IMG/VR virus record: IMGVR_UViG_3300006916_000075
Span: 1-48,358 of that record
Source of the DNA: a virus
DNA length: 48,358 nt
Strand: one strand, 5' to 3'
Under the pieces are notes generated by a model. The model had not been told where the DNA came from. It worked only from the letters and a program-made list of their open reading frames with translations, and did no database searches. Below, in pieces: positions 1 to 34,100 of this stretch. The translations under genes were made by a program, and so were the position numbers. The first letter of the stretch is position 1, and each line of letters begins with the position of its first letter.

Positions 1-2398
1 CAAACATGCCACCTATTGCACTACCAATCACATTACCTGCGGCCATACCTATAGCACCACCTAATGGTCCTAAGAAAAATCCTAATGCTCCGAGGCCTCC
101 ACCAACTAGTCCGCCAATGTTACTGCCTGTTGCTCCACCGTCTGTACCAGCAACTACATCATAACCATCTTTGGCAACCATAACACCTGACAATACTGCA
201 CCGCCTCTAACTAAATTTGTAGGATTAAGAAATTTACTGGCACCTTTTGGTGCTCCAGGACTTGGAGGACCCACAAATGGTACTCCTCCTGCACCAGTAG
301 TCATCATGCCCAGCCTTGCCATAAGGCCGGCCCATGACGTAGTCATCCAGGTTGAAAACCCTGTCCACCAGGTGGTCATTCCAGCACTTAAGGCCATAGA
401 CGCTGTAGGCATCATTCGGCCAAAGAAAGACAGTATCATTCCTGACGCACTGGTTATTAATGCACTTACTACTGCCTTAGCGGCAAATAATCCTATTATG
501 GAAATGGCCAAAACACCAGTAGATTCCGAAAACAACATACCTAAACCTTTTGCCAGTGCTATCCCTATAATTTTTAGAGCTTGGACTCCCACAAAGGCAA
601 TAGTATCGGCCGCATAATTTATAATGCCCTTTCCAATTTGTAATTGATTATCTTTGTCTAAAAATCCGTTTAGTATATTTTCTAAATATGTGTTAAAGTT
701 TTTTCCAAACGTAGCAATGCTGTCAATAACTTTAGTCAGTCCTTCTTCAAAATTGCCGCCACCGAGTTTTTCTAGAAATTCACCTAATGTATTACCAATA
801 TCCATTCCTATTTTTTGTATAACTCCACCAAATCTTTTAAGAAGGTCGTTTACTTGACCCTGATTCTTAAAAAAGTCAGTAAATGATTTAGAAAGTCCTG
901 TTACGATACCTAACTGAAGTGTTCCTGCTGTTGCTGACAATTTTTTAATTATATTTTGAACACCAGTTAATGCCTTTTGAACATCATCATATCTGTCCTT
1001 GGTATCTAATCCCAAAGTTTGCATTTGTTGTTGTATGTTTTGCTGAGCATTAATGGCACTTTGTGATGAATTAATATAAGCCTGTGCCATGTTTTGTAAA
1101 TCTCCACCTACATCACTGGCTAATAAACTTAAAAATTTGGTTGGATCAGATGTACTGAACTCGCTTAATATATCGTTTAATATAGACGGAACCTCATCTA
1201 GAGAAAATGCCCCGTCTCTTAACCTCATAGCAATATTAACAAATTCTTCTCTTAATCCACTGTCTATGGTGCCTAGTTGATTTAAGAAATTACTAGCACC
1301 AGAGGCGCCTACAGTTGCTACTTCTAAAATTCCCTGTATAAAATTATCATCTACTTCTGCCCCTTGTAGGCCGCCAACTAAATTTTCAATTGCCGCTTGA
1401 ACTTCTGGTCCTCTGGAACCAAAATTTCTGATCAAACTAGTAATACCTGCATTGCCTTCAAGCAGATTTCTTGAACTCTGTCTTAGTTCATCCGTACTAA
1501 TACCCAATGCTGTAGAGAATAACCTTAAATTTTGAATAGATCTAAAAGACAGGTCTGCATTTCTGGCTTCATTAAATTGGTTACGAGTTAATGTCCTGGC
1601 TCTAAAATCCAGATCTTCCTGGAACAATTGAGTAGCATCATCCAATGTTACACCAAGATCTTGCCCGTAATTTGTTAATTCTAAAAACTGTTTGTTTAAA
1701 TCAGTAAGACCTTTTTGTCCTAATACTGATGCTGTTCTACTAAAAGTTGACAATGTAGTTGTAGCCTGATCAACTGTTATACCCATTCTGGTAAATGCCT
1801 GAATAGTTTGCAGAGTTGTTTGATTACTTTTTCCAGTTGTATCACCAAATGCCTGACCTACGTCTGTTAAACTTTTTAGAGCCTCTCCTGTGTTACCAAC
1901 ACTGGCTACAAGATAGCCACCAGTAATAGTACCAAATGACACTAACGATTTAAACACAAAGTCAAATGCATTTAGTGTAAAGATCATGTCTTTACTAAAC
2001 TGAGCTGTCATTCTGCCTAATGCATTTTTTTCTTGTGCTATACGTTTGTTTAAATCATCTAGGTTTTCTTGGGATTGGCCCAGTTTTTCTGTTGCACCTT
2101 TTGTTGCCTCTCCAAAAGTTTCTAATTCTTCATTTACCTCTTTGGTTTTGGTCTCAGTTGTATCCTTGCTGTCTTCAATAGTTTCTATTAAGTCTTTAAC
2201 TGCATCAGATAATTCACCATTATCCATTTTTTTAGCAACTGCTACAAGATATTTGTCTAGGTTTGTTTTTAATGCCTGATTGTTTTTTAATAGATCCTGC
2301 AGAGTGCTATCCATTGCCAGAGGTGGTATAAAAACTGAACCTCTTCCACTACCGTCCTCAGGAAGTTCAAATTCTATTCTTTTATCTTTGTCAGCCAA
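1..2398 (-). CDS. Tail tape-measure-like protein (partial, C-terminus beyond left edge)
   Basis: An open frame runs on the minus strand from a TTG at 2398 to the window edge, about 799 residues without a stop. TTG is chosen because a GGAG ribosome site lies seven bases upstream and the frame is closed by TAA just before it. The N-terminal 120 residues are charged and coiled-coil-like. The middle is helical and rich in Gln, Asn and Ser. From about residue 600 come hydrophobic helices, and the visible end is Gly/Ala-rich with many GxxxG spacings, as in tape-measure proteins that insert into the host membrane. Established: T4 uses gp29 (590 residues) as tape measure. Inference: this larger protein sets tail length here; clear gp29 similarity cannot be shown by eye. 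It diverges from gp26, and a late promoter lies 65 bases upstream. Confidence 0.65.
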   Translation of the reverse strand, partial: MADKDKRIEFELPEDGSGRGSVFIPPLAMDSTLQDLLKNNQALKTNLDKYLVAVAKKMDNGELSDAVKDLIETIEDSKDTTETKTKEVNEELETFGEATKGATEKLGQSQENLDDLNKRIAQEKNALGRMTAQFSKDMIFTLNAFDFVFKSLVSFGTITGGYLVASVGNTGEALKSLTDVGQAFGDTTGKSNQTTLQTIQAFTRMGITVDQATTTLSTFSRTASVLGQKGLTDLNKQFLELTNYGQDLGVTLDDATQLFQEDLDFRARTLTRNQFNEARNADLSFRSIQNLRLFSTALGISTDELRQSSRNLLEGNAGITSLIRNFGSRGPEVQAAIENLVGGLQGAEVDDNFIQGILEVATVGASGASNFLNQLGTIDSGLREEFVNIAMRLRDGAFSLDEVPSILNDILSEFSTSDPTKFLSLLASDVGGDLQNMAQAYINSSQSAINAQQNIQQQMQTLGLDTKDRYDDVQKALTGVQNIIKKLSATAGTLQLGIVTGLSKSFTDFFKNQGQVNDLLKRFGGVIQKIGMDIGNTLGEFLEKLGGGNFEEGLTKVIDSIATFGKNFNTYLENILNGFLDKDNQLQIGKGIINYAADTIAFVGVQALKIIGIALAKGLGMLFSESTGVLAISIIGLFAAKAVVSALITSASGMILSFFGRMMPTASMALSAGMTTWWTGFSTWMTTSWAGLMARLGMMTTGAGGVPFVGPPSPGAPKGASKFLNPTNLVRGGAVLSGVMVAKDGYDVVAGTDGGATGSNIGGLVGGGLGALGFFLGPLGGAIGMAAGNVIGSAIGGMF

Positions 2399-2494: not shown

Positions 2495-3376
2495 ATGTCC
2501 AATACAAATAACCCTCTAGTAGGTCACTTTAGGACACCAAAAATATATTCTAGTTTACCTTCAAACGGAGTATTTTATGACGAAAGCATTATAGATATGC
2601 CTTCAACCAATGAACTACCTATATATCCAATGACTGCAAAAGATGAAATCATGATGAAAAATCCTGATGCATTGTTAAATGGAGAAGCAGTTGCACAAGT
2701 TATTCAAAGTTGTGTACCCAATGTCAAGCAACCCAGAAAATTAATTGCTAATGATGTAGATGCACTTTTAGTTGCTATCCAAGGTGCAACTTTTGGAGAC
2801 GAGTTAGATGTTAATGCATCATGTACTCAGTGTGGAGAACAAGCAAGTGCTATTATCAGTGTTGAAGTTGTTCTTTCAAATATGGAACCTATAGACAGTA
2901 AATATGAATTCAGCACAGAAAATGGTCTTTTAATTACTATGAGACCTTTTAGTTATGAAACTTCTGTAAAAGCCGGTGTGGCAAATTTTAGAAGTGAAAG
3001 AAGTTTGCAGAGCATTGCAGAAATCTCAGATGAGGTAGAAAAGTTAAGAGCTTTTAATAGTAATTTTATAGAACTTGCAAATCTTAATTTTGATATACTT
3101 GTTGATTCCATAAGTTCTATTATTATACCAGCAACCAAAGAAAGCGAGGCTATTGTTGTTACTGAATATGCACACATAAAAGAATTTTTAGAAAACTGTG
3201 ATGCAAGTATTGGAAAAGAGTTGGAAAAATTTATTACAGAAATGGGTAATAAAGGTGTGCAAAAAACAATGCAAATGACATGTGAGCCCTGTAGTGAAAA
3301 ATTACCAGAAGGAGAAGAGTTTACATTTGAAAGTATTGTAAACTTTAATACAGTAAATTTTTTCACGGCTTCCTAG
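2495..3376 (+). CDS. 26: T4 gp26-like baseplate hub assembly protein
   Basis: A 293-residue protein of the T4 baseplate gp26 family type, which acts in assembly of the central hub of the baseplate. Supporting traits are the N-terminal proline-rich stretch leading to a YPMTAKDE-like motif, the NDVDALL segment, and two CxxC pairs (Cys110/113 and Cys263/266) that could form a four-cysteine zinc ribbon. It is longer than T4 gp26 (208 residues). The start has a good ribosome site (ACAGGAG) and a late promoter. The gene ends in an A-AAT-TTT-TTC stretch followed by a stable stem, in phase for a -1 frameshift into the frame that continues to 3597. The frameshifted product would be 367 residues. Family assignment is by motif recall, not alignment. 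Confidence 0.8.
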   Translation: MSNTNNPLVGHFRTPKIYSSLPSNGVFYDESIIDMPSTNELPIYPMTAKDEIMMKNPDALLNGEAVAQVIQSCVPNVKQPRKLIANDVDALLVAIQGATFGDELDVNASCTQCGEQASAIISVEVVLSNMEPIDSKYEFSTENGLLITMRPFSYETSVKAGVANFRSERSLQSIAEISDEVEKLRAFNSNFIELANLNFDILVDSISSIIIPATKESEAIVVTEYAHIKEFLENCDASIGKELEKFITEMGNKGVQKTMQMTCEPCSEKLPEGEEFTFESIVNFNTVNFFTAS

Positions 3377-3418
3377 CTCGTGCAGAGCCTGAGGAGGTAG
3401 TGGCATACCTTAGGAAGC
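3353..3418 (+). promoter_or_regulatory. Candidate programmed -1 frameshift site
   Basis: In the gp26 frame the codons are GTA AAT TTT TTC ACG GCT TCC TAG. Two slippery heptamers of the X-XXY-YYZ form overlap: A-AAT-TTT at 3355-3361 and T-TTT-TTC at 3358-3364. Six bases after the first begins an 8-bp stem, GCTTCCTA (3368-3375) with TAGGAAGC (3411-3418), whose loop holds a smaller hairpin GCTC/GAGC (3376-3388). A slip at either heptamer gives the same protein, continuing FFHGFLARAEPEEVVAYL into the next frame. Not experimentally shown. Confidence 0.6.
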
Positions 3419-3597
3419 TCAATGAAGATTCAGATGCCATTAACAAAGAAGTAACCGAAATGGTTATCTATGCACAAGGTAGTCTGAGTTTTGCAGACGT
3501 TTGGACTATGAGTTTACCTCAAAGGCAATTAGTAGCAAAAACTATCAATAATTATTTTAAAGCAAAAGCAGGTAAACCAGTATCAGAAGATATGTAA
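3400..3597 (+). CDS. gp51-position reading frame, probable -1 frameshift extension of gp26
   Basis: Read as a separate gene this starts with GTG at 3400 and gives 65 residues. The only ribosome site, GAGGAGG at 3391-3397, sits two bases from the GTG, too close for normal initiation. The frame is open further upstream and overlaps the end of gp26 in the -1 frame, so it is better explained as the C-terminal part of a gp26 fusion of 367 residues. The sequence is helical and amphipathic, with a segment ending SLPQRQLVAKTINNYFKAK. Its position next to gp26 recalls T4 gene 51 (hub assembly catalyst, 249 residues), but it is much shorter and I see no sequence proof of homology. Its stop overlaps the next ATG (TAATG). 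Confidence 0.6.
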   Translation: MAYLRKLNEDSDAINKEVTEMVIYAQGSLSFADVWTMSLPQRQLVAKTINNYFKAKAGKPVSEDM

Positions 3598-4019
3598 TGA
3601 GTTGGTATTATAAAGACAAAGAAATATCAGAACTTCCAGATGATTGTGAGGCGTTTGTATATTTAATTACAAACCTTACAAACGACATGAAATATGTTGG
3701 AAAAAAATTAGCAAAATTCAAAACAACCAAACCTCCATTAAAAGGCAGAAAAAATAAAAGACGTGGCACAAAAGAAAGCGACTGGCGTACTTATTGGGGG
3801 AGTAGCGATCATTTAAACAACGATGTAATAGAATTAGGAGAAGAAAATTTCCGTAGAGAAATATTATATTTTTGTCCTACAAGAGGAGTTGCAAGTTACT
3901 TGGAAGCCAGAGAGCAATTCGAAAGGCGAGTACTTGAAACAGATGATTATTATAATGGAATTATCAACGTAAGGGTTGGTGGTTCTAAAATCCTTAAAGA
4001 GACCTTAAAAGACTACTAA
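3597..4019 (+). CDS. GIY-YIG endonuclease (phage homing-endonuclease type)
   Basis: 140 residues. The N-terminus carries a degenerate GIY-YIG signature: VYL at residues 21-23 and YVG at 33-35, a basic loop (about 38-58), then YWGSS at 66-70 and a GEENFRREIL helix (81-90). An EAREQFERRVL helix from about 103 probably supplies the catalytic Glu. The end, YYNGIINVRVGG, is typical of phage Hef-like endonucleases. Such enzymes cut DNA at specific sites and often spread with their own gene. The ATG overlaps the stop of the upstream frame, so it is translated with the hub genes and is not inside a visible intron. A 500-base non-coding, G+C-rich stretch follows directly. The target site is unknown. 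Confidence 0.75.
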   Translation: MSWYYKDKEISELPDDCEAFVYLITNLTNDMKYVGKKLAKFKTTKPPLKGRKNKRRGTKESDWRTYWGSSDHLNNDVIELGEENFRREILYFCPTRGVASYLEAREQFERRVLETDDYYNGIINVRVGGSKILKETLKDY

Positions 4020-4516
4020 GTAGGTGTGTTAAGACGAAAGTTAGAACACAATTCACATCAAGGCACAAACACAGGCAATACATAGGACTATACACCGGCC
4101 CCAACAGAGGCAAATTAAATCTGGCTCCTTGACAATCCGGCAATGGCAACACCCGGTGCGAGATACTGGAGATGTATAGCGGCAAATGAGATACAAACAC
4201 GACAAACAGTATTAAACGATTCAGGCTCTGAGAACAAGCAACCTGAGAATCAGTATAACTAAACTCATCTAGGTTATACAGGTTTCCGTGGGACACCAGT
4301 GACGGTAGTGTATGAGGAGTAAAGGCCCACCGCTTCTTAACAGCACCCGAGATTGAGATGATGAAGACTTCACATGATGACATCATTGTTCACCTGTAAC
4401 AGGTGAATTATGACTCCAACTTACATGATAACGGCTTTAAAAAAAAATTACAAACAAATGAAAGAGTTGAGTGAAACGAAACGATTGAATGTAGTTTGTA
4501 AAGACACGAAGTGTCT
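4020..4516 (+). ncRNA. Candidate structured non-coding RNA, family not recognised
   Basis: No credible gene lies here; the short frames on both strands look like chance. By hand count 4081-4380 is 46% G+C, against about one third around it. Perfect inverted repeats include TGTGTT/AACACA (4025-4030, 4045-4050) closing an inner helix with a GAAA tetraloop, TCAGG/CCTGA (4221-4225, 4242-4246), GTATAAC/GTTATAC (4253-4259, 4273-4279), GTGGG/CCCAC (4288-4292, 4326-4330), ATGATG/CATCAT (4358-4363, 4381-4386), TTCACCTG/CAGGTGAA (4389-4396, 4400-4407) and TTACAAAC/GTTTGTAA (4448-4455, 4494-4501). The GNRA loop and G-U pairs favour the plus strand. I could not match it to tmRNA, RNase P RNA, a tRNA or a group I intron core. 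Ends are approximate. Confidence 0.5.
4502..4516 (-). terminator. Hairpin terminator after the sulfotransferase gene
   Basis: A perfect 6-bp stem AGACAC/GTGTCT starts right after the minus-strand stop at 4518. The minus-strand loop is TTC inside C-G, similar to the UUCG-type terminators common in T4. The following T tract is weak (TTTAC), so it may be a processing hairpin, or the 3' end of the plus-strand RNA candidate. Confidence 0.45.
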
Positions 4517-7887: not shown

Positions 7888-8748
7888 TTAAGTGTTGATA
7901 TCTGTTTGATCTGCTTGTTCACGCATGATTTTCATTTCGTTCTCATGCTGTATTTGTCTACCATAACTTGGTAAATGACCTTGCTCAATCAATATATCAT
8001 CTCTGATAGTCTGGTTCCTTTTTTCCAGGTTAAGTATTCTTGTAAAACTATTATTAACTGCGGCAGTATAATATGCAAATGGATTATCTGATTTCATCTC
8101 ATTAAATTGTAATCCAATATAACTTAATTGCACTAATGCCTGGCCTCTCATTTCATCAATATAAGTATAACCTCTCCAGTTAGCTCTGTGACTATATCTT
8201 TCCACAAGTTTTAAGAACATATGGCCTAACTTGTTAGTGATTTTACCATGCTTACAATTAAATTGACCATTACTCAAGCCACCTTCCCAATGACTTCTAG
8301 CAACTTCTTTGACTTCATCTGACACATAGGCATAATGTTTAAAAGGAGGAAAATTTACCTTTGCTAAGAATTCTGCTTCTGTTTTGGGATTTTTCTTCCT
8401 GCCAGGTTCTTCTGGGATATGTTCCATGGTCATAACACGGAATACCAAATCCTCTACAGGAATACTTTTTGGGTCTACAGCAAATTCTTTCTGCTTGGGT
8501 TTGTTCTTATAATCCTTAGGATCATGAACTGCCATTGCGGCCTGATAAGCCTCTGATTGCATTTTTGCGGCTTTGTTTTCTCTTGCGGATTTTATACTGT
8601 TTCTGTTAATTTTTTTAACATCTTGCAGTATGATATCAAAATCTGCATATTTGTCATCTGCTAACCAGCAGTAACTCATTTTGCTTTTGTGAATTTCTTT
8701 TAGAATATCTTTATTATTAAGATAGTTTACTTTTTTAGGCTGTGCCAT
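7888..8748 (-). CDS. 55: Late-transcription sigma factor gp55
   Basis: 286 residues, longer than T4 gp55 (185). It would direct host RNA polymerase to the GATAAATA late promoters. The N-terminal VNYLNNKDILKEIHKSK matches the start of T4 gp55 (YNYVNNKELL). The region-2-like core lies at about residues 165-255, including the segment from ITNKLGHMFLKLVERYS to NPFAYYTAAVNNSFTRIL. An extra basic segment of about 100 residues lies between the two. The start has a GGAG ribosome site eight bases upstream. A host-type promoter with an operator-like dyad lies at 8790-8817, which fits a gene that must act before the late genes. Confidence 0.92.
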   Translation of the reverse strand: MAQPKKVNYLNNKDILKEIHKSKMSYCWLADDKYADFDIILQDVKKINRNSIKSARENKAAKMQSEAYQAAMAVHDPKDYKNKPKQKEFAVDPKSIPVEDLVFRVMTMEHIPEEPGRKKNPKTEAEFLAKVNFPPFKHYAYVSDEVKEVARSHWEGGLSNGQFNCKHGKITNKLGHMFLKLVERYSHRANWRGYTYIDEMRGQALVQLSYIGLQFNEMKSDNPFAYYTAAVNNSFTRILNLEKRNQTIRDDILIEQGHLPSYGRQIQHENEMKIMREQADQTDINT

Positions 8749-8789
8749 TAATAACTCTCCTCAAAATTATCGTTCATTTATATTGTGTT

Positions 8790-10073: not shown

Positions 10074-13000
10074 ATGCCTACATTTAGACCTACACAATCA
10101 GAACTTTTATCCGCCCAACAAAGTTATCAAGAAACGGTAAGTGGATTAAGAGATTCCTATCAATCTGCTAGAGAAACTGTATTTAATAATGTGGATAATT
10201 TGCGAAGTTTATCTGACGCACAAGACTTTTTAAAAAATAATTCGGAATTATTTAACGTTTTAGGAAACGATGATATTGCTGAAATACAGAAGATATTTAA
10301 AAGTAAAACATCAGATTTTACACAATCAGCACTTGAAGATTTAGAATTAAGGAATAGTTTAGACGAGCTTGATCCACAAAATAATGAATCTGAGTATTTG
10401 GCGGCCGCCCAGCAAGGACAATATTTGCCTAACAGAGTTTCCGGTAATATTTTAGACAAGTATCATACACCAAATTATCATATCAGATTATTCATGATAG
10501 ATAAACAAAAAGTTATCGAAATGCACAACACACCTAATGACGATCCAAAAAATACTATTGGCTTCGACATTGCCCTTCAAGACCCTAGTAATGAAGTAGT
10601 TATAGCACAAACAGGTGTTACTGATTTAACTATTGATAATTTAAATCTAGAGCATTTCAACAATGATGGCACAGAATATGATGTTAATAAAAACAGAAGT
10701 GTTGCAACAACGGTAACATTTGACATAACAGAGCCAGGGTCTGTATCATTTTTAGACAGACTTGCGGCCGCAAAAGTTTATTGTGGGTATACAGAAACTA
10801 TAGTAGACACAGCAGAAGGCCAATCACTTGGTCTTTCTGGTTCAACTGATCCTTCACAAGCAGTATCAAGTAATATACCTTTCTATTTAGAGATCACATT
10901 TAAAGGTTATCCTGATGAGACAATTGATGATGCACCTAATAATAAACCTAGTGATCCGCATATGATAGGTCGTCCATTCGTGTATGAATTAGGATATTTG
11001 AAATTCGATATGGAAATAACTCCAGAAGGTTCCACGTATCATTGCTCTGCTCACATCATGGACAATGTTGCACAATTTAAAAAATATCATACATTTCAAA
11101 CAGAAATAGTAATTTCTGGAGGTACTATTACGGAACTGTTAGAAGCCCTACAGAGATCATTAAATAACCAATTAACTACAGAAAATAATACTGAAGGAAC
11201 ATCAGGATCTACAAACACAGATAATTCTGGAAATACAACTGATGATACTCTGTCCAAAGCAAAAACTGAATATATTATAAACTATGAGGATATGTTTTAT
11301 AAAAAAGATTTTAAAGCCGGAGAAGGAGATAATCCTGATAATGCTCAAGATCAAAGAACTACTACAGGAAGATATTTAGACAGAATCTATATAGATCCAG
11401 ACAGAGTTACACCTATAAATTTTGCAGACGCACCAGAATCCTATCAAACAAAATTTGCAGACAGATTTGGTGGCCAGGATGCGCCAACAAAACCACAAGA
11501 TAGTTCTACTTTCGGTTCTTATACTCCACCAGATGGTTTGGCCGGTGGTGACATATTTTTAGATGATCCATTAAGCGGTGACCAAATTGCTAATACAGAC
11601 ATAAGCCAATTAGATGAAAGAAATATGGATAGAGTTAGAACAATCTTGTCTGATAAATCTTCAGTTTCCTTAAGGTTTCCTAAAGGTAATAATGTTCAAG
11701 ATGCCTTGATAACAATTATGGGTCTGAGTTACGATTTTATGCAAAATGCCACCAGACTAAAGGATTTAGAAAACCCCGAAAAGGGTGTTGACATGAAGAA
11801 AACTTTTGTAGGTTGGTTTACTATAGGCAATTCTATAAATTTTGACTATAGCAAATTTGATCCTAAAAAAAGACAATATAAAGCCAGAGTTGAATATAGT
11901 CTTTTACGAGTTCAATCTCCCAGGACAGACATAGGATTGACTTCTAGTTGTATGGCACCACTTACAAATTTAGAAATTGTAACAGACAGAATTACCGAAT
12001 TAAAAATTCAAAAAGAATATCTTTATATGTTTACAGGCTTAAATGACCAAATAAAAAGTTTAGATCTTAAATTTGATGAGGCCTTTGCATTAAGAGTACC
12101 ATATTATGGATTAAGAAATCCTGTAGCTCAATTGGCTTATGCTCATGCTAACAGCAAAACATTAGATGAAGCAGAAAAAGAAAATCCGCTTTTAACAAGT
12201 CCTAATGAAAAACAAAAAGCAGAAGCTCAAAAAGCCACAATAATAGATTTTTTAAATGATGTAAAATCACAAATAGATAGTGGAAAAGATATCCTACAAA
12301 CTGCTATAGGTAATGTAGTAGATGGTTCTACTGGAAGTGGTTTTACAAGGGAGTTTGTGGAAAGTGCATTAAGCGGACAAAATGCGGCAAACGAAGATGC
12401 GTTGGTCGAAGCCATTGCGGCTGATGAGGTATTTAGAGAAGCAATAAATCAGGAACTGGTCAGAAACAGAATTGCTTCACAAACTGGAACTCCCACAGAA
12501 AGTGATACACAGGAAAGTACGCAAGAAGAAGACGAAAGAGATATTAATATACCTGTATTTTCTTCACAATTGGTACCGGGTCTAGAAGGTCCAGGTGACG
12601 ACTCCAGAATCGCAGAAAGATTTGCATCTTTTATGAACGCTCAAGAAGTATTTGACTCTAGAGCTTTAGTTTCAGGAGCCACATCAACAATTAATGTTGA
12701 TACTACATCAACAAATCAAAAAAGTTACTCTCAGGCAGTTGAACGTGGTTCTATTAGAGCTATGGCATTCTCACATTTAATGTCTCAACATGCTGGTGCT
12801 AGTAGCAGTATGCAATTGGTTATGGAAATAAGGGGTGATCCTTGGTGGTGGGGTAAGAAAAATTTTTATGATCTAGATAAAACAGCAGACAGCAACGAAT
12901 ATATTTCAGATCTAGAAGGCGCCTATGCAGACAGTGGTGGACCTGTAATTTTATTAATGATAGAATCTCCAAGGAAATTAGACTTTAATGTAGATGACGA

Positions 13001-20600: not shown

Positions 20601-22169
20601 GCAAACGTGGACGTTAATACACAATCAGGTAATTTAGTATATACCGAACTACAAAATCAAAATTATCTAAATGCTACAGACAGTAGCGGAAAAACTTTTG
20701 TAGATAAAATAGTAGTAAGTTATGAAAATTATAAAGACAGATTAGATAGAAATATTGATTGGCATATTATAGGTACATATAAAGAACCAGACGGGTTTAC
20801 TGACAATTCAAAGGTACTTGTAGCACCATACGATACTGATAACGACTTAGTACCAGATAGACCGTTACAATTTTCTGAATTCGTAGACTCTAACGATTTA
20901 GTATTTTTTGAAAAATACGATGATTTTGATGGCTATACTTACGAAAGATCTTCTAAAGGTGAAATATTAGACTACAGAGGAGAAACTGTTTTAATTAGAG
21001 AAGATAATAATAATACTTTAAGCCCAGATACATACGATAATCCTCAATCATTTACAAATACATCCTGGATAGTAGTTGACAATTATGATATGGTTACCTC
21101 TTACCTGCAAAATAATACAACAAAATTATCAGGTGTTAAGGTATATGTTGTTAATGAAAACAAAGTATATATAATGACGCCTAATAGCACAAACGTAAGC
21201 CAAATTAGGCCAGTACTAACTGACAAATATTCTGTAAAACAAGGCAGAGGTGAATCACAGAATACACTTTTAACTGAACAAACACCAATGGTATTTAAAT
21301 GGAATCATGTGGCTGATAAAGATGTCAGAATAGACCCAAGTATTAGCAATGTTATAGAAATGACTGTTTTAACAAAAACATATAATACAGAAATTAACAA
21401 ATATTTAAATGTTCCAGGTACTCCATATCCTACACCCCCTTCAGCATATGAATTAAGTGTACAGTTTAGTGAACTCAACGAGTTTAAAAGTGCAAGTGAC
21501 AGTTTAATATTTAAAAGTGCAAAATTTAAAAAATTATTTGGTGCAGACGCTGATCCAGAATTACAAGCAAAATTTAGAGTGGTAAAACTTTCAGAAAATG
21601 TGAGCGATAACGAAATTAAATCTAAAATTATTTCAGCATTTAACACTTATTTTGACCCTTCAAATTGGGATTTCGGAGAAACTTTTTACTTCACAGAATT
21701 AAGCACATACGTTCATCAACAATTAAAAGGAATGGTTGGTAGTATTGTGATCTTGCCTAAACAGGGAAACAGTAAATTTGGAGATTTATTTAGTGTAAAA
21801 CCAGAATCAAATGAATTATTTTTAAGTACAGCAAAAGTATCAGATATAGAAATAATTAGTAAATTAACAAGATCAACAATTAATATAGATAATGCTTCTA
21901 ATGTTGTTATAGCCAATGATGCAATAGAATCCGCAGGGCCTTATGCAATTAACGGATATTATCCTTTATATGCAGACGAAGTTCTTGCAAATGCGGCTGG
22001 CGACGGCACTAGTCATATACACAGATTTTATGGACAAGTATTTTACATGCCTAATGGCCTAGTTATGAACAAAACAATGTTCCATGGTAATTACACAGGA
22101 ACAATAGGTAATGACAGCAGTTCATCAAATTCAGGTTCAACTGGTTCAGGTTCTAGTGGTGGATATTAA
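17688..22169 (+). CDS. 6: Baseplate wedge protein gp6, enlarged
   Basis: 1493 residues against 660 in T4. The first 490 residues are gp6-like: a conserved N-terminus with FIAIIELLAFVAQSLAFRMD and SRENFLETAERRDSVFKLAR, and later RMVSAQDYNVFPF and HSRYIDINDPTGT. The C-terminal 270 residues are also typical, with FKKLFGADADPELQAKFRVV, WDFGETFYFTELSTYVHQQL and GNSKFGDLFSV. Between them lie about 730 extra residues of beta-rich, Asn/Thr-rich sequence, and the C-terminus ends in a short Ser/Gly tail. In T4, gp6 dimers clip neighbouring wedges together into the ring. The insert probably decorates or thickens the baseplate. Its stop overlaps the ATG of the giant gene. Confidence 0.85.
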   Translation: MAYSERQNNLFAAEDWKVAYKVFSNIDFTSYDFNTLRLSMVSYIKQNYPENFNDYIESSEFIAIIELLAFVAQSLAFRMDLNSRENFLETAERRDSVFKLARMLGYSPRRRIPASGLAKIVAISTSEPITDSLGNNLAGKPIFWADANNADAYEQFITVLNSALSTSNRFTSPAKEGTVGGIKTEVYRILKSLNSPLAFGFTSQVAGSSRNFEIVDADFYDNQYFYERHPDPINSFGLIYRNDGKGQNSINSGFFMMFKQGQLKSKDFNFTAPLPNRSQDVGVVGINQTDLWVQEIRTSGSIINKWSRIQNTVGQTINFNAQQQNTRNLYAAETLPNDDVRLKFTDGNFGKIPTGVYRVWYRTSDGENYAIRPADMDRRTVTIPYENKEGKIYNLTVTFSLQSTVNNGLPTETVGNIKRNASQIYYTQNRMVSAQDYNVFPFSKSSNIQKLKAVNKTHAGHSRYIDINDPTGTVQNIELYGDDGYLYKEYSTTSSTTVVSPNNTANNFVVNKLPELLKNQALNNFLYETARKNWVDFKNNSFDLESLDITWRPLPVTNEGATGYMTETTSVTSSGSESVLTNNYLTFKQIQENNFIKWVNPDNVADYKWVRITREENAGLLTSGLSTAVGPWTLSASIPAGWKAHEVIVSLRKELQGTEIISVQSQIENKKTFGLGYSPAYVDTNLSADTWYIIENENLDKTSDYDAVDTGKTTGNPIDSSWLLLFTFVPINESSYKYEITLRGENYILQSNSDIKFYNINNVKVVDTNNKSNMDKISITTLNNKPGSTERFRWYNSNPSFDSLNDSWYSEETGAFTTPTASSYNIGLPLRSRDTKWFDVGFQWESNFGIMRVPTNNTPTDIINLDTFVNDTKITLNTYYDDGTAAALTTNVTIANNIGTVSKIPGNITIPFTNTTFGYNIINSEGNVMYKQYNTGTATVEIFHANSSGVTHSFGVGGASHNASSLGRLILANVDVNTQSGNLVYTELQNQNYLNATDSSGKTFVDKIVVSYENYKDRLDRNIDWHIIGTYKEPDGFTDNSKVLVAPYDTDNDLVPDRPLQFSEFVDSNDLVFFEKYDDFDGYTYERSSKGEILDYRGETVLIREDNNNTLSPDTYDNPQSFTNTSWIVVDNYDMVTSYLQNNTTKLSGVKVYVVNENKVYIMTPNSTNVSQIRPVLTDKYSVKQGRGESQNTLLTEQTPMVFKWNHVADKDVRIDPSISNVIEMTVLTKTYNTEINKYLNVPGTPYPTPPSAYELSVQFSELNEFKSASDSLIFKSAKFKKLFGADADPELQAKFRVVKLSENVSDNEIKSKIISAFNTYFDPSNWDFGETFYFTELSTYVHQQLKGMVGSIVILPKQGNSKFGDLFSVKPESNELFLSTAKVSDIEIISKLTRSTINIDNASNVVIANDAIESAGPYAINGYYPLYADEVLANAAGDGTSHIHRFYGQVFYMPNGLVMNKTMFHGNYTGTIGNDSSSSNSGSTGSGSSGGY

Positions 22170-25100
22170 TGGCGGATAAACTTTACAATAAATTACCCAA
22201 CGTATTGCAAACTACGGCTGTAAAGAATTTCTTTGACAGTACAGTAGAACAACTTTTTAGTCCAGCAAATGTAGAAGTCATAAATGGATTTATTGGTAAG
22301 CAAGACAGTGACCAATTTAATGTACTAGGCAGTTTTTTACGAGAAACTTCAGCAAACAGACATCATTATTCTTTAACTCCTGCGGTGAATACTTTAAATT
22401 TAGAAACAGGAGAAAGTGAGAACTTTGTTTTTTATGATGAGGTAGTTGACAAATTAAAAGTTTATGGTGTAGACACAAAAGATCATAACAGGATTTTTAG
22501 TACAAATTATACATCATTTTTACCTCCAATAGATATTGACAAATTTATAAATTATCAGGAATACTTTTGGAGCAATAATGATTTAAGAGCAATTACAGTT
22601 ACAGGCTCATTGTCTAATCCAATTGATATAGATACTGATATTATAGGTAAAAAATCATTCACATCCGCAAATAATGTAACATTTAAAAATGGAATGGTTG
22701 TTAATTTTTCAGGTGAATTTGTAATACCATCAAATAGATCAGGAATAGACTATTATATTGAAGGTGTTGGTGACTCCATAAGACTTATACCTAGAAACCA
22801 AAACGTAGCAACAGGTTATTCTACAGCAGTTTTAAACACATGGGATAATACTGTATTTACAGAATTAGATACTAATGTTAAACATACAGCAGGAAATATT
22901 ACTGGTGTAATAATTGATAATCCTGGTATAGGTTATTTAGAACCAGTTATATCTTTTACTGGAGCAAATACAACATTAGCAACAGCAACAGCAAATTCTA
23001 ATGTAAGTGGAAGTATTACTGACGTAACTGTTACAGCAAATGGAACAGGTTATAGTGCGCCTATTGGATTAACAATTACAGGTACAGAAGTCTTTACAAC
23101 ACTTAATGTTGCAAATACTATGGTGTCATTTTATAATGCTGACAAAAGTACTAGAGAATATTCTTATAATAAATTAGCACTTGATGACAGCAGTAATATT
23201 TTTATAGGTCAAAATGTTTTAATAAGTGGCACAGAAAATGCTACTGTTGAAAGTTTAACAAATACATCTATTGTATCTATTGAAAATATTTCTAATAGTT
23301 TTGATACAAGCAGAACACCTGGAATATATACTACATCTGGTACCACTAGTGGTAGTGGTATAAATCAAAACTTTAGAGTTACAGTTTTTGATGAAACAGA
23401 AATACAAACTATTGTAAACATTGACGACCAAAAAGCAGTATGGCAAGGTAATGCTACAATATCAACTGCTAGAACAAATATAACAAAAACAGGATTAAGT
23501 GCCACAGGTGGTACAGGTACTGGTGCAACATTTGATATTGAGTATGACGGAAGCCAAAATGTTACTGTTACTATTAATAATGCTGGTAGTGGCTATCGCA
23601 GAGCAGAACTGCTTACAATAGCAGGTAATGATATAGATGGTGTAAGTGGTCCTGATTTAACTTTTAATGTTTTAGAAATAGAAAAACCTCAAGGCATATT
23701 TGAACTAGGAAATATCACACTCAGTAATGTGTCAGTTTCAGATACATCATTTTTAGTGGACATGTTAGACGTCCCCACAGCAGGAAACATAGCAACATCA
23801 GGTTCAGGTAATGATGCAATATTTAACGTTAATATAAGTTCAGGTACTGTTAGTATTGATATTAATGATGGAGGTATAGACTTTTCAGAAGGAGACACAT
23901 TTACAATTTATGGAAATCTTTTTGGAAGTGCAAACTTAGACACAATTACATTCACAATAGATAATGTTCTCGAGCCAGGCGACAGTTTTATAGAATTTTT
24001 AAACGGTGGTACAGGACATGCTGTAGGTGATACTATCACAATAACAGATGCTGAGTTAGGTTCAGGTGGGGGTTCAGATTTAACATTTGATGTAGCCAGA
24101 GAGGGAGATATTTTAAAAATATCTCATGATGTATTATTAAACCAAGGTTCAAATTTAAGTGTAATTTTTAACGGTACAGGATTTGTGGGTACTGTGAGAA
24201 CAGACATGTACTCATTTACATCCAATGCAAGTGGTACATTTACTACTGGTATTTCAGATATGGCACTTAGTGGAGTTGACCCAAACACTGGAGACTTTTA
24301 TTTAGGTGGTGCTCCTGATAGTTCTACTGACTATGGTTGGGATATAGACAATGATGGCGATGGAAATGGAGATGCTGTTTGGGGAGGTAGAACTTCACAG
24401 GGAAATCCAGACTATAATGTTTTAAAAAGAGGATCATCTAATAGAAATGTTTGGAGTAGGGTAAACTTTTGGCATCATAAACAAAACTACATTGATGCTG
24501 GTATGGATATACCCGGTAAAGAATATAGAGCAAAAAGACCAATTATAGAATTTGACCATGACATAGAATTATACAACCATGGCAAAAATTTTATTGGTGA
24601 GGTTTTGGTAGTTGAACCAGTAAGGAAAAAATCAGAAATAGAAGGACAGGCAGTTAGTATACTAATTGATGGATCACCTTTACCAGTTGGCGGAACTATA
24701 ATTTTTCCAAATGAATCAGAAAGCATTTCTAAATACATTTACAAAGTAGGCCATTCAAATGCAACCATATCATTATCAAGAGTTGCAAATTTAAATGAAA
24801 ATCCTACAGGTGCAGAAGATGGTGATGCAAATTTTGTTGCATTAGAGTTTACAGAAGGTGCAGTAGTTAATATTAAAGCAGGTGAACAAAATATAGGTTC
24901 AGAATGGCACTGGAAGAATAATATTTTACAAAAGGCACAATCTAAATTAAACCTACACCAAGCACCATTGTTTAATATCTATAATGATGAGGGATCATTT
25001 TTAGGGGACACTTCAATATATCCTAATACAGATTTTGTTGGAAATAAGATATTTAATTATAAGATAGGTACAGGTACTAAAGATTCTATACTTAATTTTC

Positions 25101-28100
25101 CTTTATCATACAAGCAATTTTATAAGTCAAGTGAAATACAATTTGAAAACTTTTTAGAAAATTATACGGTAAAATATTCGAAAGACAATGCAAGTACTTC
25201 TATACCTGGATATTTTTATTATAAAAAAGATAAACTTGTGCCTGAATTTCATAATACCTGGAAAGAAGGCAATAACAAATCAAAACAATCAGTAAAAACA
25301 TTTTATTATATTAATAGATTTGATTTAGACAATAAGTCTCTAGTTTATTTTATAGGCTGTGAGCCTGAAGAAAATTCAAATTTTTCAAGTGGTTATAATA
25401 TTGTTGTTAAAGTAAATGACAAAATTGTCACAAATTATGTTTATACAGAAAAAGGTTTAATAAAATTTGATAGTTTTGATTTTAACGATAAAGATGTGAT
25501 TGAAATAATAGCTCACACTAAAAACGGGTTAATTTCAGAACGAAGTATTAGTAAATATGATGTACCAATAACATGGGATAGAAACATACAAAAACTAGAT
25601 ATAACAAATATATCTAAACCAGAATATTTAGAGCATTTTTCTAATTTAATAAAAAATACATCGGGTATTACGGGTGATGCTTTAGGTAATAATAATTTTA
25701 AAGATTTAAAAGCCAACCCTTCAGATGCAAAAGATATTGTAAAAGCAGATGAGGATTTAATTCTAGGAACATTCCTATTAGACGAAGCACCGCACAATTT
25801 AGTAGATGCTATAAATTTTTGCCATAAAGAATATGTTGGTTATAAGAATAGACTTGTTTTTGAAATAGAAAAATATTTAAACTCTACAGATGCAGATAAT
25901 TACACCAATGAATTTATTTTAGACAATGTTTTACGGAATGTAATTTCCTTTAGTGTGGGTAAAGATGTTTTTCAAAGAACATATACTATACCGTTTGGTG
26001 ATAATTATATTACTGAAGAAAAAATTATAAACACATTAAATGATACTAGTTATACTCCTGCAAAATATATAGATCTTAGCAAAATTGAAAATAGTATTCT
26101 TGTTTACAAAGTAAGAGGAACACAGACTGATTTATTAGAAATAGATAAAGACTATACCTTAACATCAACGACAACAAGCAATACATTTACACCAACATCT
26201 CATTTAGATTTAGCCTTAGCAGACAAACTTGTATTTAAAATATATGATAAAGAACGTGATAGTGCAGAATGTCCTCCAACACCAAGTGTTTTAGGTTTAT
26301 ATCCCCTTACTCAACCTGTAATAGAAAGTGACACTAGTTTCCAAGAAGCAGTTTCAGTAATTATAGGTCATGATGGAAGTAAAATACCAACAAAAGGCAC
26401 AAGAGAAGACCAAATACTATTAGAATTTGAAATCAGAATTTATAATAGTGCTAAAAAAGAATTTAGAGATGCAAATAGTTTACCAGAATTAAGTGTATTT
26501 AATGTAAGATCAGGTAAATTTAGAAATACTAATTTTTCTAATGATGAATGGTATGATTTAATGCGTACCAATTTTAACACATGGAATTTAAAAAACAAAA
26601 CTGATTTTGTAACAAATGAATTTTATGATAGCAATAACGAGTGGACTTGGAACTATAGAGGAGCATCTTCTGTACCAGGACACTGGAGAGGCTGGTATGA
26701 ATACTATTATGACACAGTAAGACCTAATACACATCCTTGGGAAATGTTAGGATTTACAGAAAAACCAACATGGTGGGATAGCCAATATATCACAACTACA
26801 TATACAGATTACAGTAGTAATAATACACCTATGTGGCAAGATTTAGAACTTGGATTAATTAGACAGGGCTCTAGAGAAAATTTAAGTGGTAATGAATACA
26901 AAGATTTAGAAAATAACCCATGTGCTAGACCTGGTTTGAAAGATGTTTTACCAGTAGATAGTAGTGGAAATCTAAAATCTCCTTATGATATAGATAGCAC
27001 AGGTTCAACCACTATAACAAAAACATATAATGAAACAGTTTCTAACACCAGTTTAGATTACAAAACTACCAGTTACTTATTGACTGACGGATTAAGTGTT
27101 TATTTTGATAATGCTAATGTATATGTAAGCAGTAAAAATATTCCAAACTATAATACAGATAAAATTGGAACACTTGCTGGAGAACAGCCTATAAAACCAA
27201 TTACATCTGCATACAGTATACCACAAGTAAATTTAAATTCAATAACTTTGTCAAATACCAGTATGCAAGATGGTGCAATTGGTGTTTTAGTAAATGGACA
27301 GCCTATTTATAACCCTTCTAATGCAACAACATTTGAAGATGAGGGTAACTGGACATATAATGCAGGATTTTTAGAAAAAAATGGAAGAGATGAAGGAATA
27401 ATTGCTCATACTGACAATAACGGGCTTGTTCATACACATGTTCCTACTGAAGAAATGAGTAATACAGAAGTCTGGGGTAATAGCACTACACACTCTGGAA
27501 TTGTTGGCTGGGCATTTGATGGATTACCAATTTATGGCCCATATGGATACAATTCTTATCATGCAAATGGTATTGTAGACGATAACAGCATAACAAATGT
27601 AAAAAGTAGTTTTGAATTAAAGCCTGGTTCAAGAAGTAGCCACCCAGGTGGTGCTCACACAGGCTTATTCCTTGAAGATTATCAATATAGTGCAAGTTTA
27701 GCCTTACAAAACGGTACAGCAGGTAAATTTAACACAAGATATGGTGTTACCCCTGAATCTTCAAGCACACCTATACGTTTTTATGTGGTAACAATAGATG
27801 ATGATGGTGCTCCTATGTTCCCTTATGCTATTGGAGGTGGCACAAAAACCGATAATACATATAATAGTGAGTTTTTTGCTACTCCACAAGACCTAAGTAA
27901 CAATAGAAAAGGTATAGCACCAACACCTTCCAGTGTAACCACTGCAATTAGAAGTACTTATACAGAAACACAAACACAAGATAATACTCAAAATGCAGAA
28001 TGGAGAATTGGCGATGGTGCTCCGGTAGAAAATGCATGGAAATATAGTTCATCATATCCTTTTGCTGTTATTCGTTCTTTACTTTTAGCAAAACCTGGAA

Positions 28101-31100
28101 AATTTGCAAGAGCTTTTGCAGACCCAATAGCCTTAGTAAAAACTACTGTTGGTCCTAAATCATTCAGGGTAAGCAAAACAACTAGAAAAACATGGAATTA
28201 TAAAAATGATGATGACTTTAGAATTCATGGAACATATGATAGCGAAAATCAGTTTGTTTCTAATATTGGGTACTCACAATTTATAAAATCTTGGCTTAAA
28301 TTTCAAGATTATGATATAACTAATAATTTTAAAGAAAAATTAAAAACTTTAAATACAAAAATTTCTCATAGAATGGCAGGTTTTGTTGACAGTGATACTG
28401 CAACAATAAAAACAGACCAATATAGTACAACAGGAAATGCTTCAAGTATAATAATACCGGTTGAAAATAGAAAAGTCACAATACACGACAGTGGAAACAA
28501 GTCTAGAAACAATTACACTGGTGTAATTATTGAAAAAACTATAAATGGTTATAAAATAAAAGGTTTTGATACCTCATTATCTTATTTTAACATATTAGAA
28601 AGTGATAAACAAAAAGAATCACAATCAATTACTAGAGGCGGAAAACCAGTTTCATATATTAATTGGGCATCTAATAAAGAATATCCATTAGGAACTATAG
28701 TAAACTATTTAGGCAGTTATTACATGTCCAGAATGAATGTGCCATCAAATAGTACATTTATTTCTGATCAATGGGATAGATTACCTTCACTTCCTCAACA
28801 AGGTGGTGCTAAAGGAATAATTTACAAAGAATCTACAGGTATTATAAAAAGAATAGATTATAATAAAGAGTTTACCTCTGTACAAGAAGTGTTTGACCTA
28901 CTTATAAGTTTAGGAAGGTATCAAGAATCAATAGGATTTAACTTTGGAGAGTATGACGACAGTATAGGTAATGTTAAAAATTGGAATTATGCCGCAGAGC
29001 AATTTCTTTTCTGGGTCACAGGCGGCTGGGAAGTAGGAAATACATTAGAACTTTCTCCAGGTGCAGGTAGTATTGAATTTTTAAAACAAAACGAAGCAGT
29101 TTCTGAAATAAAACGTGTATATAGAGATCAATTTAGTATATTAGACCAAAATGGTGCTGTAATTGACCCTAAAGAATGTGAAATAATCAGAGACGCAAAC
29201 AGATTGCAAATTAAACCACCAGTTGGCTCTCAGATTTATAGTATTACATTATACACAAAACAATTAGAACATGTTTTAAGCATTGATAATGTATCTGACT
29301 TTAATGATACTTACTATAACGATTTACTAAACCAAAGAATTAAAAGATTAAACTTTAAAGGTAAAAGAACATTAGGTTGGGACGGAAGATTTAGTTCTGA
29401 AGGGTTCATTATTGACGAAGGGGAATTACAGCCTAACTTAGATAATATTACATCTACAATGGCAAATTACCACACAATTGGTTTTGTTCCTGTAGATAAA
29501 CAATTATATAATGCATCAAGAAATTTAATAGGATTTGAAAACAAGTCTTATCTAACAGAATTAGGAATTACTGACGATGATCAAGTAGAATTTTACAAAG
29601 GTGCTATACAATCTAAAGGTACATTAAATTCTATAAGTAAAATACTTAATAGTAATTCAATTGTCCAGGGTAATGTAAACATATATGATGAATGGGCATT
29701 AAAAACTGGGTCATTTGGTGATTTAGATAACAATCAAAGTATTGAGTTAAAACTTTCTAAACAGGATATTGTGCAAGACCCACAATTATTCCAACTGGAA
29801 TTTCCTGAAGACATAACTGGGTTAGTAAAAGAGATAGTAATAACAGAAAGAAATGCAAGTTATTATGAAACACCATTAATAGAGTTAGGTGCTCCAACTA
29901 ATTCACCTAAAAAACAAGCCACAGCAGTAGCAACACTAAGTTCAGATGGTACTATTAACAGTATAAGCATTACAGAACCTGGAACAGGGTATGTAGAAGC
30001 AAATACAACACTAACAGTTTTAACATCTAACCTTAATGTTACAAGTAATACATATACATTTAATTATGTATCTGCTGTAAGTGAAAGTTTATTCCCACAA
30101 TCTAACATATCAGGTATAGCAAACATAACAATAGCAGACCATTTTGCTAGTAATACATCTGCACAAACTATTGATTTAAGTAGTGTAACAGAGGTAGCAA
30201 ATGTTGTGACAGCAATTAATACTGATAGTGTAACAAATGCAAATATTGTTGCCACAGCAATAGAAACTTTTGATTCAAATGCAAACTCCAGTAGTTTTGT
30301 ATTACAGATTACAGGATCAGATTTTACATTAGGTGGCTCAGGATTAGCAAATTTAAATTTAACAGCACAAAGATATCAACCTAGACAGAGATTTGGGTTT
30401 ACTATTGCTAATAACACAACTGTAGACAATATTATTGTGTCAGTAGACGATACATTGGTACCAAGAATTGATGGAAATGTAACTTATTGGGAATACGATG
30501 CTGGAGATAGATTCCAAACAACAACTTCCACATTGACGACAAGTGGACCATATGATGTAAACATAGCATCACTAACTGGAATGATAAATTCTAGCAGTAT
30601 TATTGCAAACGAAAACACAGCTCTTGTAGAAGGGATTTATTCTTATGTAGATGTTTATGTAAATGGTACAAAATTAGAAAACACAGTTGATCAAAGTCAA
30701 TATTCAGTTCCTAATAACACTACTGTAAGAATTTTAGATGTAACTAATTTACCAGAAGGTAATATTGCTCCTAATTCAAACATTTACATAGTAGAAAAAG
30801 CAACTATAGACTTTACTGATGACTATCAGGGAGATATTCCTACAAGCAATTTAAGTATAAAAGTTCAGAGTAACGAAGGATTTAGTGTACAAATTGCAAG
30901 TAAAAGAATTTTTGACATTACTCCTGATATTAAGAATGATGAAATTATAACTTTAGATATAGATGACAAAAACAGGTTCCTTAAAAAGCCAAATGGAATA
31001 AGAACAAACGAAATTTGGCCACTTGTTTCAAATGTAGATTATACAGGTGTTAAAGATATTGAGTTTACTCAAATACCTAATGCGGGTTATGTTGACAGAA

Positions 31101-34100
31101 AACATGTAAACTATCAGAGTTTCGGTGTTATTGATATGCCAGACCTATTTGGTGCTGACAGAGTTTATAAGCCTAGTAAAAATGAATTAATTCATATAGC
31201 AAAAAGTGAAAATAATGACTGGAATGTTTACAAACTCAGAGAGCCTGAAGATTTAGGTGTAACTTTTATAGAACAAGATGGTACACCTGGAGCATATTTA
31301 TATACTACTGCTGATTTATTTGACTATGTAGATAGTAATCAATTACAACAAAATGATTTATCTAGATTTTTAGATTACACACTTGTTATAAAACGTGCTA
31401 GAACTTCACAAGATGTAGTATTATGGACCAACCAAGAAGTTGTTGATAAAAAATCAGCACTTATAAGAGACTTTGGTGCTATAACAATGTTACAAGCGAA
31501 CATAGATACTATTGGAGTTGGAGCATCTTCAACCTTCTATCATGACTTTAGTAATATTTCTCCAGCACAAAGATCTAAAATTGTAGGTGATGTTGTACAA
31601 GCAGATGCAAATGGCACCGTAATTATGACTGCAAATGGTGGTAGCACAATACAAAACGGTGATCAAATTTTCCTTATAGACCCAGCACATACTCTAGTGA
31701 CTCACTCTGCAACTAGTTTATTACATTCAGATACAGCAAATGCTACTAGTGGTAGTGCTAATGCAATTTATGATAGTAAAATTACTATTACAGCAAGTAA
31801 TCCAGCAAATGTAACTAACATCGTGGGTAACATCACAATGATTGATTTGACTTTCTCAGGAAGTAATGTAGGTGACTTTACTCCAAGTGAAGTAACCAGT
31901 TTAAGATATACAGCAAGTAATGTAGATTATGTAGCAGGTACATTTGATATACACACAGATGATTCCACATTCCAATCTTATTTTGGTAACGTGGCGAACA
32001 CAACCATTACAAGTGTTACTAATTCTTTAACAAGTGTACAATTTACTGTACATGAACATAGTAACGTTCATTTACAAACAGTTACAGCAAGTAATGTAAA
32101 TTTAAATAATGGTACTTTTACATTTAATCAGAGTAATGTTACTGCAAATGCTAGTAACATGGTGGGTAGACTGCTAACAAAATGTGAACTTACAGTTCCA
32201 GATCACGGTCTATATATTGGTGAGATAGTAAAAGTTTTATCAAATAATATAAGAGGGTATTATCAGGTAGAATCAGCAACACAAAACAGTTTTGTTATTA
32301 ATGCTCCTTATCATGCAAATTTAGATGTCACAGGACAAGTTTTAACCAGAGGGTTACATATAAAAACATCAGAGCCACACAATTTACCTGTAGGCTATAA
32401 TGGAAAACGTGTTATGGTTCACCAGGCACAAAACCCTTACTACAACCAAACTTATAATGTAGGTTATGTAAAAAGCAATACAGAAATTATTATTGAAGAT
32501 GTGTTTGCCTGGAATGCTACAGAAGACGATGTGTCGCCTTCTTTTAATGCAGTAGTAGACGGTTCAGTTGTAAATTCTAACAGTATAAAATTATCAAGCC
32601 CACCAATTGAAATAGGTAGAAAATTTATAGTAACAGGCTCAGGAATCACAGAAAGAGTTAGAGTTACCGACATCAGTAAAATGAATGTTACTGGTGTAAT
32701 AAAATTAGACAAAAAAGTTTCAGTAGCAGACGGTGTCACACTTACTTTTGAAAAAGAATGTGTGCTTACAACATTAGATCATGATGTAATTAAATTAAAT
32801 AATACAAGTTTTAGAATAGATGATACAACTACTCCACAGGGTATAGTAGAGTCATTTAACAATACTCAGGCCATAAAAGCAGGATTAATAAACAAAAAAG
32901 GAAATACATTTGGTCTAGGTATTCCAATGTTGAAAAAACCATACTTGCCAGATGGTACTCCATACAGAGCATACGCAGGTAAATCTCCTTATGTAAGAAA
33001 TGAAGAATTAGATGAAAACTTGTCTGCTGGTATGGATAAAATGGGTCATATTAAATTTAAAAACCCAGCAAATGCAGGATACAAGCCGTTTAATAAAAAC
33101 CCTGTTCAAAGTTATATAGATCCTAACTCACCATTAAGCGGTGCATATGGTTCAGGAGTGAAAACACCATACAACAATTATTTGGCAACTCCACAATACT
33201 TTGGTACAGGAGGAAGTATTACAGGAGGCCCTGATGTTAATGTAGGAAACACTTATGCTGACCAAGGACCAATAAGCAATGGTGTTGTTGACGTACCTGT
33301 GTGGACACCTAAAATTAATCAAAACAGCTCACTTAACGATATTGGACCTGGTGCTCCTGTATTCACAGGACAGGCCTTACAAGGTGCTCCAGAAAAACGT
33401 TGTGGGCCAGACGCATGTGCTTCAACAAATAGAGCAGGTAGAGGAATACCTCATAGTATTATTAGAGGAAATGGCCCTTTAACCTGGAACTCACAAAATT
33501 GTGCTATAGAAAGTACAGGCACTATTACAGTATCGGGAACGGTATCAGGTACAGGACATGGAAAAAGAAAGTGGGGCGGCGACTATTCAGGATATTACAG
33601 TCCAACAGGACAAACAGGTGGTGGTGCTATAGACTTTAAGAAGAGAGCGGCCGCAGGTGCTGTAACATGGTCAGATAATGGTAGTACCCAGTCCTTTAGA
33701 GTTCCATTTAAGGTAACTCAAAGTGGTAAAATTTATGTACACGGATACCAATCTGGTAAATCAGGTAGAGACACAACCACAATATCAGTAAGTGTAGTAT
33801 CAGGTAATGCAACCATAGTAGGTGCAAGTACTATAAAATGTAAGTATATGGGACCGGGATACACTTCACCAAATGGTGCAGGTGCAGTTATACAAGTAGA
33901 TATGCAGGCCGATTCAGAAATTTTAATTACAGGTACATGTAAAGGTGGAAGTAATCATTGGCATTGTTGTGAAATGCATGTGTCAGGATCTAAATCTGCT
34001 CTTAACCGAACAAGTGAAAGAATTGTAAAAAATACACAAACTAATACAGGAGGACAAACAGGTGCTCAAAGTGGAAATGGTGAATATGTAATATTTGATT

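Follow-up and report, generated by a model that had tools for sequence, protein, structure and literature searches.

The stretch of DNA analyzed here (hereafter, the window) is a 48-kb fragment (IMGVR_UViG_3300006916_000075; 48,358 nt) from a large marine phage related to T4. It carries a gp26-type gene, an open -1 reading frame that overlaps the end of this gene, an endonuclease gene and a putative structured RNA, preceded by a divergent gene for a probable tail protein (Table 1). The start codon of the endonuclease gene shares the last base of the -1 frame (T-frame) stop codon (TAATG). Elsewhere in the window, a single ORF of 6245 aa occupies positions 22169-40906, in the baseplate region.

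Table 1. Features of the gp26 locus (window coordinates).
Feature	Coordinates	Strand	Comment
Divergent neighbor, probable tape-measure or tail protein	2-2398	-	cut by the window end; phrog_1047 (tail), 2.9e-5
gp26-type short tail assembly chaperone, zero frame	2495-3376	+	293 aa, 32.3 kDa
Slippery heptamer 1, A AAT TTT	3355-3361	+	in phase with gp26; 36/36 marine loci
Slippery heptamer 2, T TTT TTC	3358-3364	+	in phase with gp26; 31/36 marine loci
-1 frame domain (T-like)	3355-3597	+	80 codons from the heptamer; would be reached by frameshifting
5' arm of stimulatory stem, GGCTTCCTAG	3367-3376	+	overlaps the gp26 stop codon (3374-3376); predicted to pair with 3410-3419
Inner hairpin within the stem	3380-3406	+	predicted fold; details not conserved
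GTG able to open a 65-aa ORF, unlikely start	3400-3402	+	GAGGAGG two bases upstream; not conserved
3' arm of stimulatory stem	3410-3419	+	90% of stem cells paired; beats synonymous shuffles in the window clade
SegE-type GIY-YIG endonuclease	3597-4019		PF19835, 5e-33; between chaperone and ncRNA
Putative ncRNA, ~450 nt	about 4020-4510	+	strongly covarying

The gp26 product belongs to the T4_baseplate family (PF12322; 4e-16, 59.8 bits, against a curated cut-off of 24.5) and matches phrog_150 in a profile search (6.5e-18). Where the BFVD matches of the predicted fold (pLDDT 81) carry names, these are baseplate-hub and hub-assembly proteins; in the PDB, the model has no significant match. The gene ends with GTA AAT TTT TTC ACG GCT TCC TAG, where, in agreement with the preliminary description of this DNA, two overlapping heptamers of the canonical X-XXY-YYZ form lie in phase; an additional in-phase AAATTTT, at 2983, lies within gp26, distant from the stop. 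The -1 frame contains no stops from 3355 to the stop codon ending at 3597, and the fusion (2495-3597) comprises 367 aa (40.7 kDa), the length and the junction peptide (VNFFHGFLAR) being those given previously. Either heptamer as the slip point yields the identical product. The -1 domain is modeled as helical (pLDDT 91), without a significant Foldseek match for the model or a Pfam or PHROGs family match for the sequence.

Scans of IMG/VR recovered 14 loci with gp26 as the query and 74 with the -1 product, and all 74 show the same frame relation, with the zero frame ending at TAG and a homologous domain in the -1 frame. A one-base change would join the two frames, as expected if a sequencing or assembly indel divided one gene; this reading, to which we assign a negligible probability, is refuted by the conservation of the frame relation and the zero-frame stop across dozens of independent contigs and in many finished genomes of cultured phages.

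The marine relatives were reduced to 36 non-redundant loci, in which identity to the window falls as low as 46% in gp26 and 35% in the -1 domain. The GTA, AAT and TTT codons are invariant in this set despite the synonymous options at the third position. Heptamer 2 is lost only where heptamer 1 is kept: in five loci, TTC is replaced by TCC, which breaks heptamer 2 and leaves heptamer 1 intact. Only T4-type phages, which possess a separate full-length gp51, retain the genes without either heptamer. The site includes a run of six T, on which the RNA polymerase rather than the ribosome might slip to produce a fusion mRNA. However, six is a short run for polymerase slippage, and five lineages that keep A-AAT-TTT have only five T. 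The heptamer is also conserved in phase and followed by a stem, both of which favor the ribosome, so that transcriptional slippage is highly improbable.

Between the zero-frame stop and any start codon, pairwise differences among the -1 codons amount to 1201, 629 and 2849 at positions 1, 2 and 3, respectively. Because variation is concentrated at the third position, this stretch appears to be translated in the -1 frame. The third-position excess is seen before position 3400, where the preliminary description had proposed to look for protein-level selection; the -1 frame is under such selection there, and none of the relatives contains a stop in the -1 frame before that point. The GTG at 3400, previously described as poorly spaced from its ribosome-binding site, is indeed so, and there is no conserved start for the second frame among the relatives; in about 10 marine loci, none of the codons ATG, GTG, TTG and CTG occurs within the first 150 nt of this frame. 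The extension is conserved as protein and lacks a start of its own, as in a lambda-type G/GT gene.

These observations bear on an alternative in which the second frame forms a small gene of its own, initiated independently or by ribosomes that terminate at the gp26 stop and reinitiate. Annotators do call distinct ORFs in CBB, GAP32, Kaldavass, Moby, KVP40 and Phosso, and a few relatives have an ATG overlapping or close to the gp26 stop, among them Phosso, Atu_ph07 and KVP40, in which separate initiation could occur. Nevertheless, the marine loci without a usable start, the onset of the conserved protein sequence upstream of any start codon, the conservation of the heptamer independently of the amino acids, and the in-frame fusion of the same domain in T4 gp51 all speak against a separate gene, which we regard as unlikely.

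The 8-bp stem described previously (3368-3375/3411-3418) is present, inside a predicted 10-bp stem, and this core starts six bases past heptamer 1 and three bases past heptamer 2. In comparison with synonymous-codon shuffles, the window stem has a z-score of -2.4, with 3% of the shuffles as stable. When -1 codons were resampled synonymously, the z-scores were -5.7 in L119, -4.7 in L123, -4.4 in Atu_ph07 and -2.9 in Phosso, with no folding excess in L150, L163, Kaldavass and RaK2; the mean was -1.6 for the marine loci and -1.2 for the cultured phages, the native fold being the stronger. Across 27 distinct sequences, 90% of the stem cells are paired, compared to 31-69% when the pairing is slid. 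Covariation of this stem is uninformative because the 5' arm is dual-coding and hardly varies. In the TTCTTAG lineages (L149, L157, L165, L169 and L170), the 5' arm pairs with AAGAAGCC farther downstream, a relocation of the 3' arm that is only suggestive given the modest support from synonymous shuffles. Of the two elements whose conservation was at issue, a heptamer is retained in all marine loci and cultured jumbo phages compared, whereas the stem is stronger than shuffles in the window, Atu_ph07 and Phosso, and weak or absent in several lineages. As judged from these alignments, the slippery site is the constant part of the signal and the stem is lineage-specific.

The slippery site extends well beyond the marine clade. 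All 12 cultured jumbo phages checked (Atu_ph07, SCTP-2, PA5oct, Phosso, CBB, GAP32, Kaldavass, RaK2, XaC1, Vibrio 2.275, fEgEco12 and pEa_SNUABM_19) have T-TTT-TTC at the gp26 FF motif, followed by an open, homologous -1 frame, and retain the heptamer even though the residue preceding FF varies (N/H/D/S/Y/R). These phages lack A-AAT-TTT at this place unless TTT is preceded by AAT. T-TTT-TTC is also found in 38/38 cyanophage-like and 2/2 KVP40-type contigs (40/40), and the site is present in Moby, KVP40 and a cyanophage. Rhizobium phage RL2RES carries the variant T-TTT-TTG, and Ackermannvirus 2050H1 possibly has G-GTT-TTC. For 17 genes from diverse phages, the chance of encoding T-TTT-TTC given the amino acids and codon usage is 0.09-0.20 each, and all 17 have it; the joint log10 probability, -14 if the genes are independent, is overstated, the lineages being related. 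In one 13.9-kb contig (L061; IMGVR_UViG_3300017909_003416), the 24-base frameshift motif occurs twice in opposite orientations (8727-8750, + strand; 11087-11110, - strand), reflecting either an inverted duplication or a chimeric assembly.

Annotation of the -1 piece across T4-superfamily genomes is inconsistent: it is called as a separate gene or missed (NC_026924 5571-5666; KVP40.0327; Moby gp055; CBB_249; intergenic in PA5oct and RaK2). In the jumbo phages, the piece appears as a separate hypothetical gene, a truncated gene or nothing at all, and a 32-aa 'gp51' annotated in a cyanophage is a fragment of the -1 frame.

In T4 itself, gp26 and gp51 both match PF12322 (gp51 over residues 1-201 of 249) and align with each other by single-pair BLASTP, that is, they are paralogues. 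Gene 25 follows gene 26, and gene 51 is divergent from it. The fusion of the cyanophage/KVP40 type aligns with the gp51 set (T4 and relatives) over 239 columns (hhalign probability 99.3, E 8e-21), colinearly into the C-terminus. The -1 domain alone matches the gp51 C-terminus with an E-value of 2e-9, against 0.04 to 0.4 in column-shuffled controls. The window clade is connected by a chain of hhalign comparisons, to the cultured jumbo phages (4e-20 for the -1 domain and 7e-84 for the fusion) and from these to the cyanophage fusion (9e-18); directly, its -1 domain matches the gp51 C-terminus weakly (5e-4), and the fusion family matched gp51 only marginally (P 0.02) before the cyanophage and KVP40 bridges were added. 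Through the jumbo phage and cyanophage bridges, the fusion has the layout of gp51, a gp26-like domain with a homologous C-terminal extension. The original idea that gp26 and gp51 form a G/GT-like pair holds, with corrections, one being that the 65-80-aa piece is not gp51 itself: it is the whole fusion that T4 gp51 matches.

The number of PF12322 genes differs accordingly. T4, Melin, VP8, CfP1 and two other T4-type genomes have two, whereas the frameshift genomes tested have one; these include the marine contigs L105 (250 kb) and L130 (122 kb), which lack the T4-type gp26 and gp51 gene pair, with the caveat that marine contigs may be incomplete. The PF12322 gene of SCTP-2 was missed by the profile and recovered by tblastn. 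In the four T4-type gp26 genes inspected, the FF position lacks a poly-T heptamer, and an equivalent -1 frame is absent. By sequence comparison, the slippery site accompanies a single PF12322 gene in the tested genomes and is missing where there are two. A record named Staphylococcus phage SAJK-IND (MG010123.1, 24584-25207) contains a gp26 98.6% identical to that of T4 and is probably mis-assigned or contaminated.

This alternation between one gene with a slippery site and two genes without it, together with the homology of gp51 to the fusion, the conserved in-phase signal and the selection on the -1 frame, points to a -1 programmed ribosomal frameshift that makes a short (gp26) and a long (gp51-type) tail assembly chaperone, a reading that we hold with a probability of about 0.92. 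Most ribosomes would stop at 3376 and release gp26, the short chaperone; a minority, we infer, would slip back by one base on A-AAU-UUU/U-UUU-UUC, helped in this lineage by the stem downstream, and read on to 3597, yielding the 367-aa long form. The extra helical domain of the latter may act as the lambda T domain does and, by the same analogy, the tape measure protein would be coated by a large number of short and a small number of long copies, which would recruit the tube subunits. T4 has no slip; there, the long form comes from the separate gene 51. It seems somewhat more probable than the opposite that the gp26 frameshift is ancestral in the T4 superfamily, that Straboviridae exchanged it for a duplication with an in-frame fused gp51, and that, in the marine clade, A-AAU-UUU took over as the slip site from U-UUU-UUC, which it overlaps, and the 3' arm of the stem changed position in some lineages.

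Several known systems resemble this arrangement. Among them are the cyanophages, KVP40 and the jumbo T4 relatives (PA5oct, RaK2, CBB and 121Q-like phages), which share with the window T-TTT-TTC at the gp26 FF motif and the homologous -1 domain; the marine clade differs in the additional overlapping A-AAT-TTT, invariant there. T4 gp26 (short) and gp51 (long) are, like the products predicted here, PF12322 proteins, the long one with a C-terminal extension, but T4-type phages encode them in two paralogous genes with no heptamer, in contrast to the single gene and -1 slip of the window. Lambda gpG/gpGT likewise combines a short chaperone with a frameshift-extended form; the heptamer is different, and the likeness is recognized without a sequence relation. 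In Vandenendeviridae and Andersonviridae (phage Adele), a poly-T -1 signal ends the short chaperone gene of a myovirus (PMC12846349). That motif, GTTTTT, differs from the heptamers of the window, and the likeness considered here is one of signal and position.

The preliminary description also placed gp26 beside the tape measure gene, as in lambda. The neighbor is a probable tape measure, going by the annotations of its relatives and weak similarity; however, it is divergent and upstream, whereas the lambda tape measure gene lies directly downstream. The neighbor in the window, which has no direct tape-measure profile match, joins those of the marine relatives and, through L170, gene 88 of RaK2 and a protein of fEgEco12 by weak transitive BLAST similarity; these two are annotated as tape-measure-like and pb2-like, respectively.

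In the marine clade, a second structured RNA, the putative ncRNA, follows the frameshift site within ~0.3-2 kb and occurs in either orientation (for example, L111:3319-3770, - strand; L101:3666-4151, + strand). The query region matched 160 loci (73 distinct matches). In the alignment of 39 copies, there are 74 consensus pairs, with 99.2% of the cells paired compared to 35-40% when slid; 195 cells carry double changes, against 54 ± 7 in shuffles, and 22 pairs have double-sided changes. The element ends in a terminator-like sequence, AGACACGAAGTGTCT. Rfam 15 contains no relevant match, the best two being below-threshold eukaryotic snoRNAs (E 1.7 and 2.9) located downstream of the ncRNA, and BLAST found no match in the cultured phages searched. 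With a covariance model, 13 cultured genomes gave no hit, and three marine contigs (104-250 kb) gave one copy each. The element is possibly a new family of phage ncRNA.

The class of mechanism and the identity of the chaperones are already known, and the literature already mentions poly-T slippery sites in T4-like relatives; what is added here is the overlapping double heptamer and the contrast to the two genes of T4. The idea that gp26 and gp51 are chaperones reportedly goes back to a 2022 Virology paper. In our literature search, no paper was found to describe frameshifting at gp26 in jumbo phages, though the scope of that paper may reach them. Both gp26 and gp51 of T4 have been listed as hub assembly chaperones, the latter being essential without forming part of the final particle (PMC3004832). 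G-T frameshifting has been described as conserved in long-tailed phages 'except T4' (PMC5009743). The present findings would qualify this textbook exception: most of the T4 relatives examined keep the slip, and T4 uses a second gene instead. They also show that many sequenced jumbo phage and cyanophage genomes have the long form annotated wrongly or not at all. The T4 superfamily would offer a natural experiment in which a recoding signal was exchanged for a duplicated gene, and the comparison supports reading the essential, poorly understood gp51 of T4 as the long form of the chaperone.
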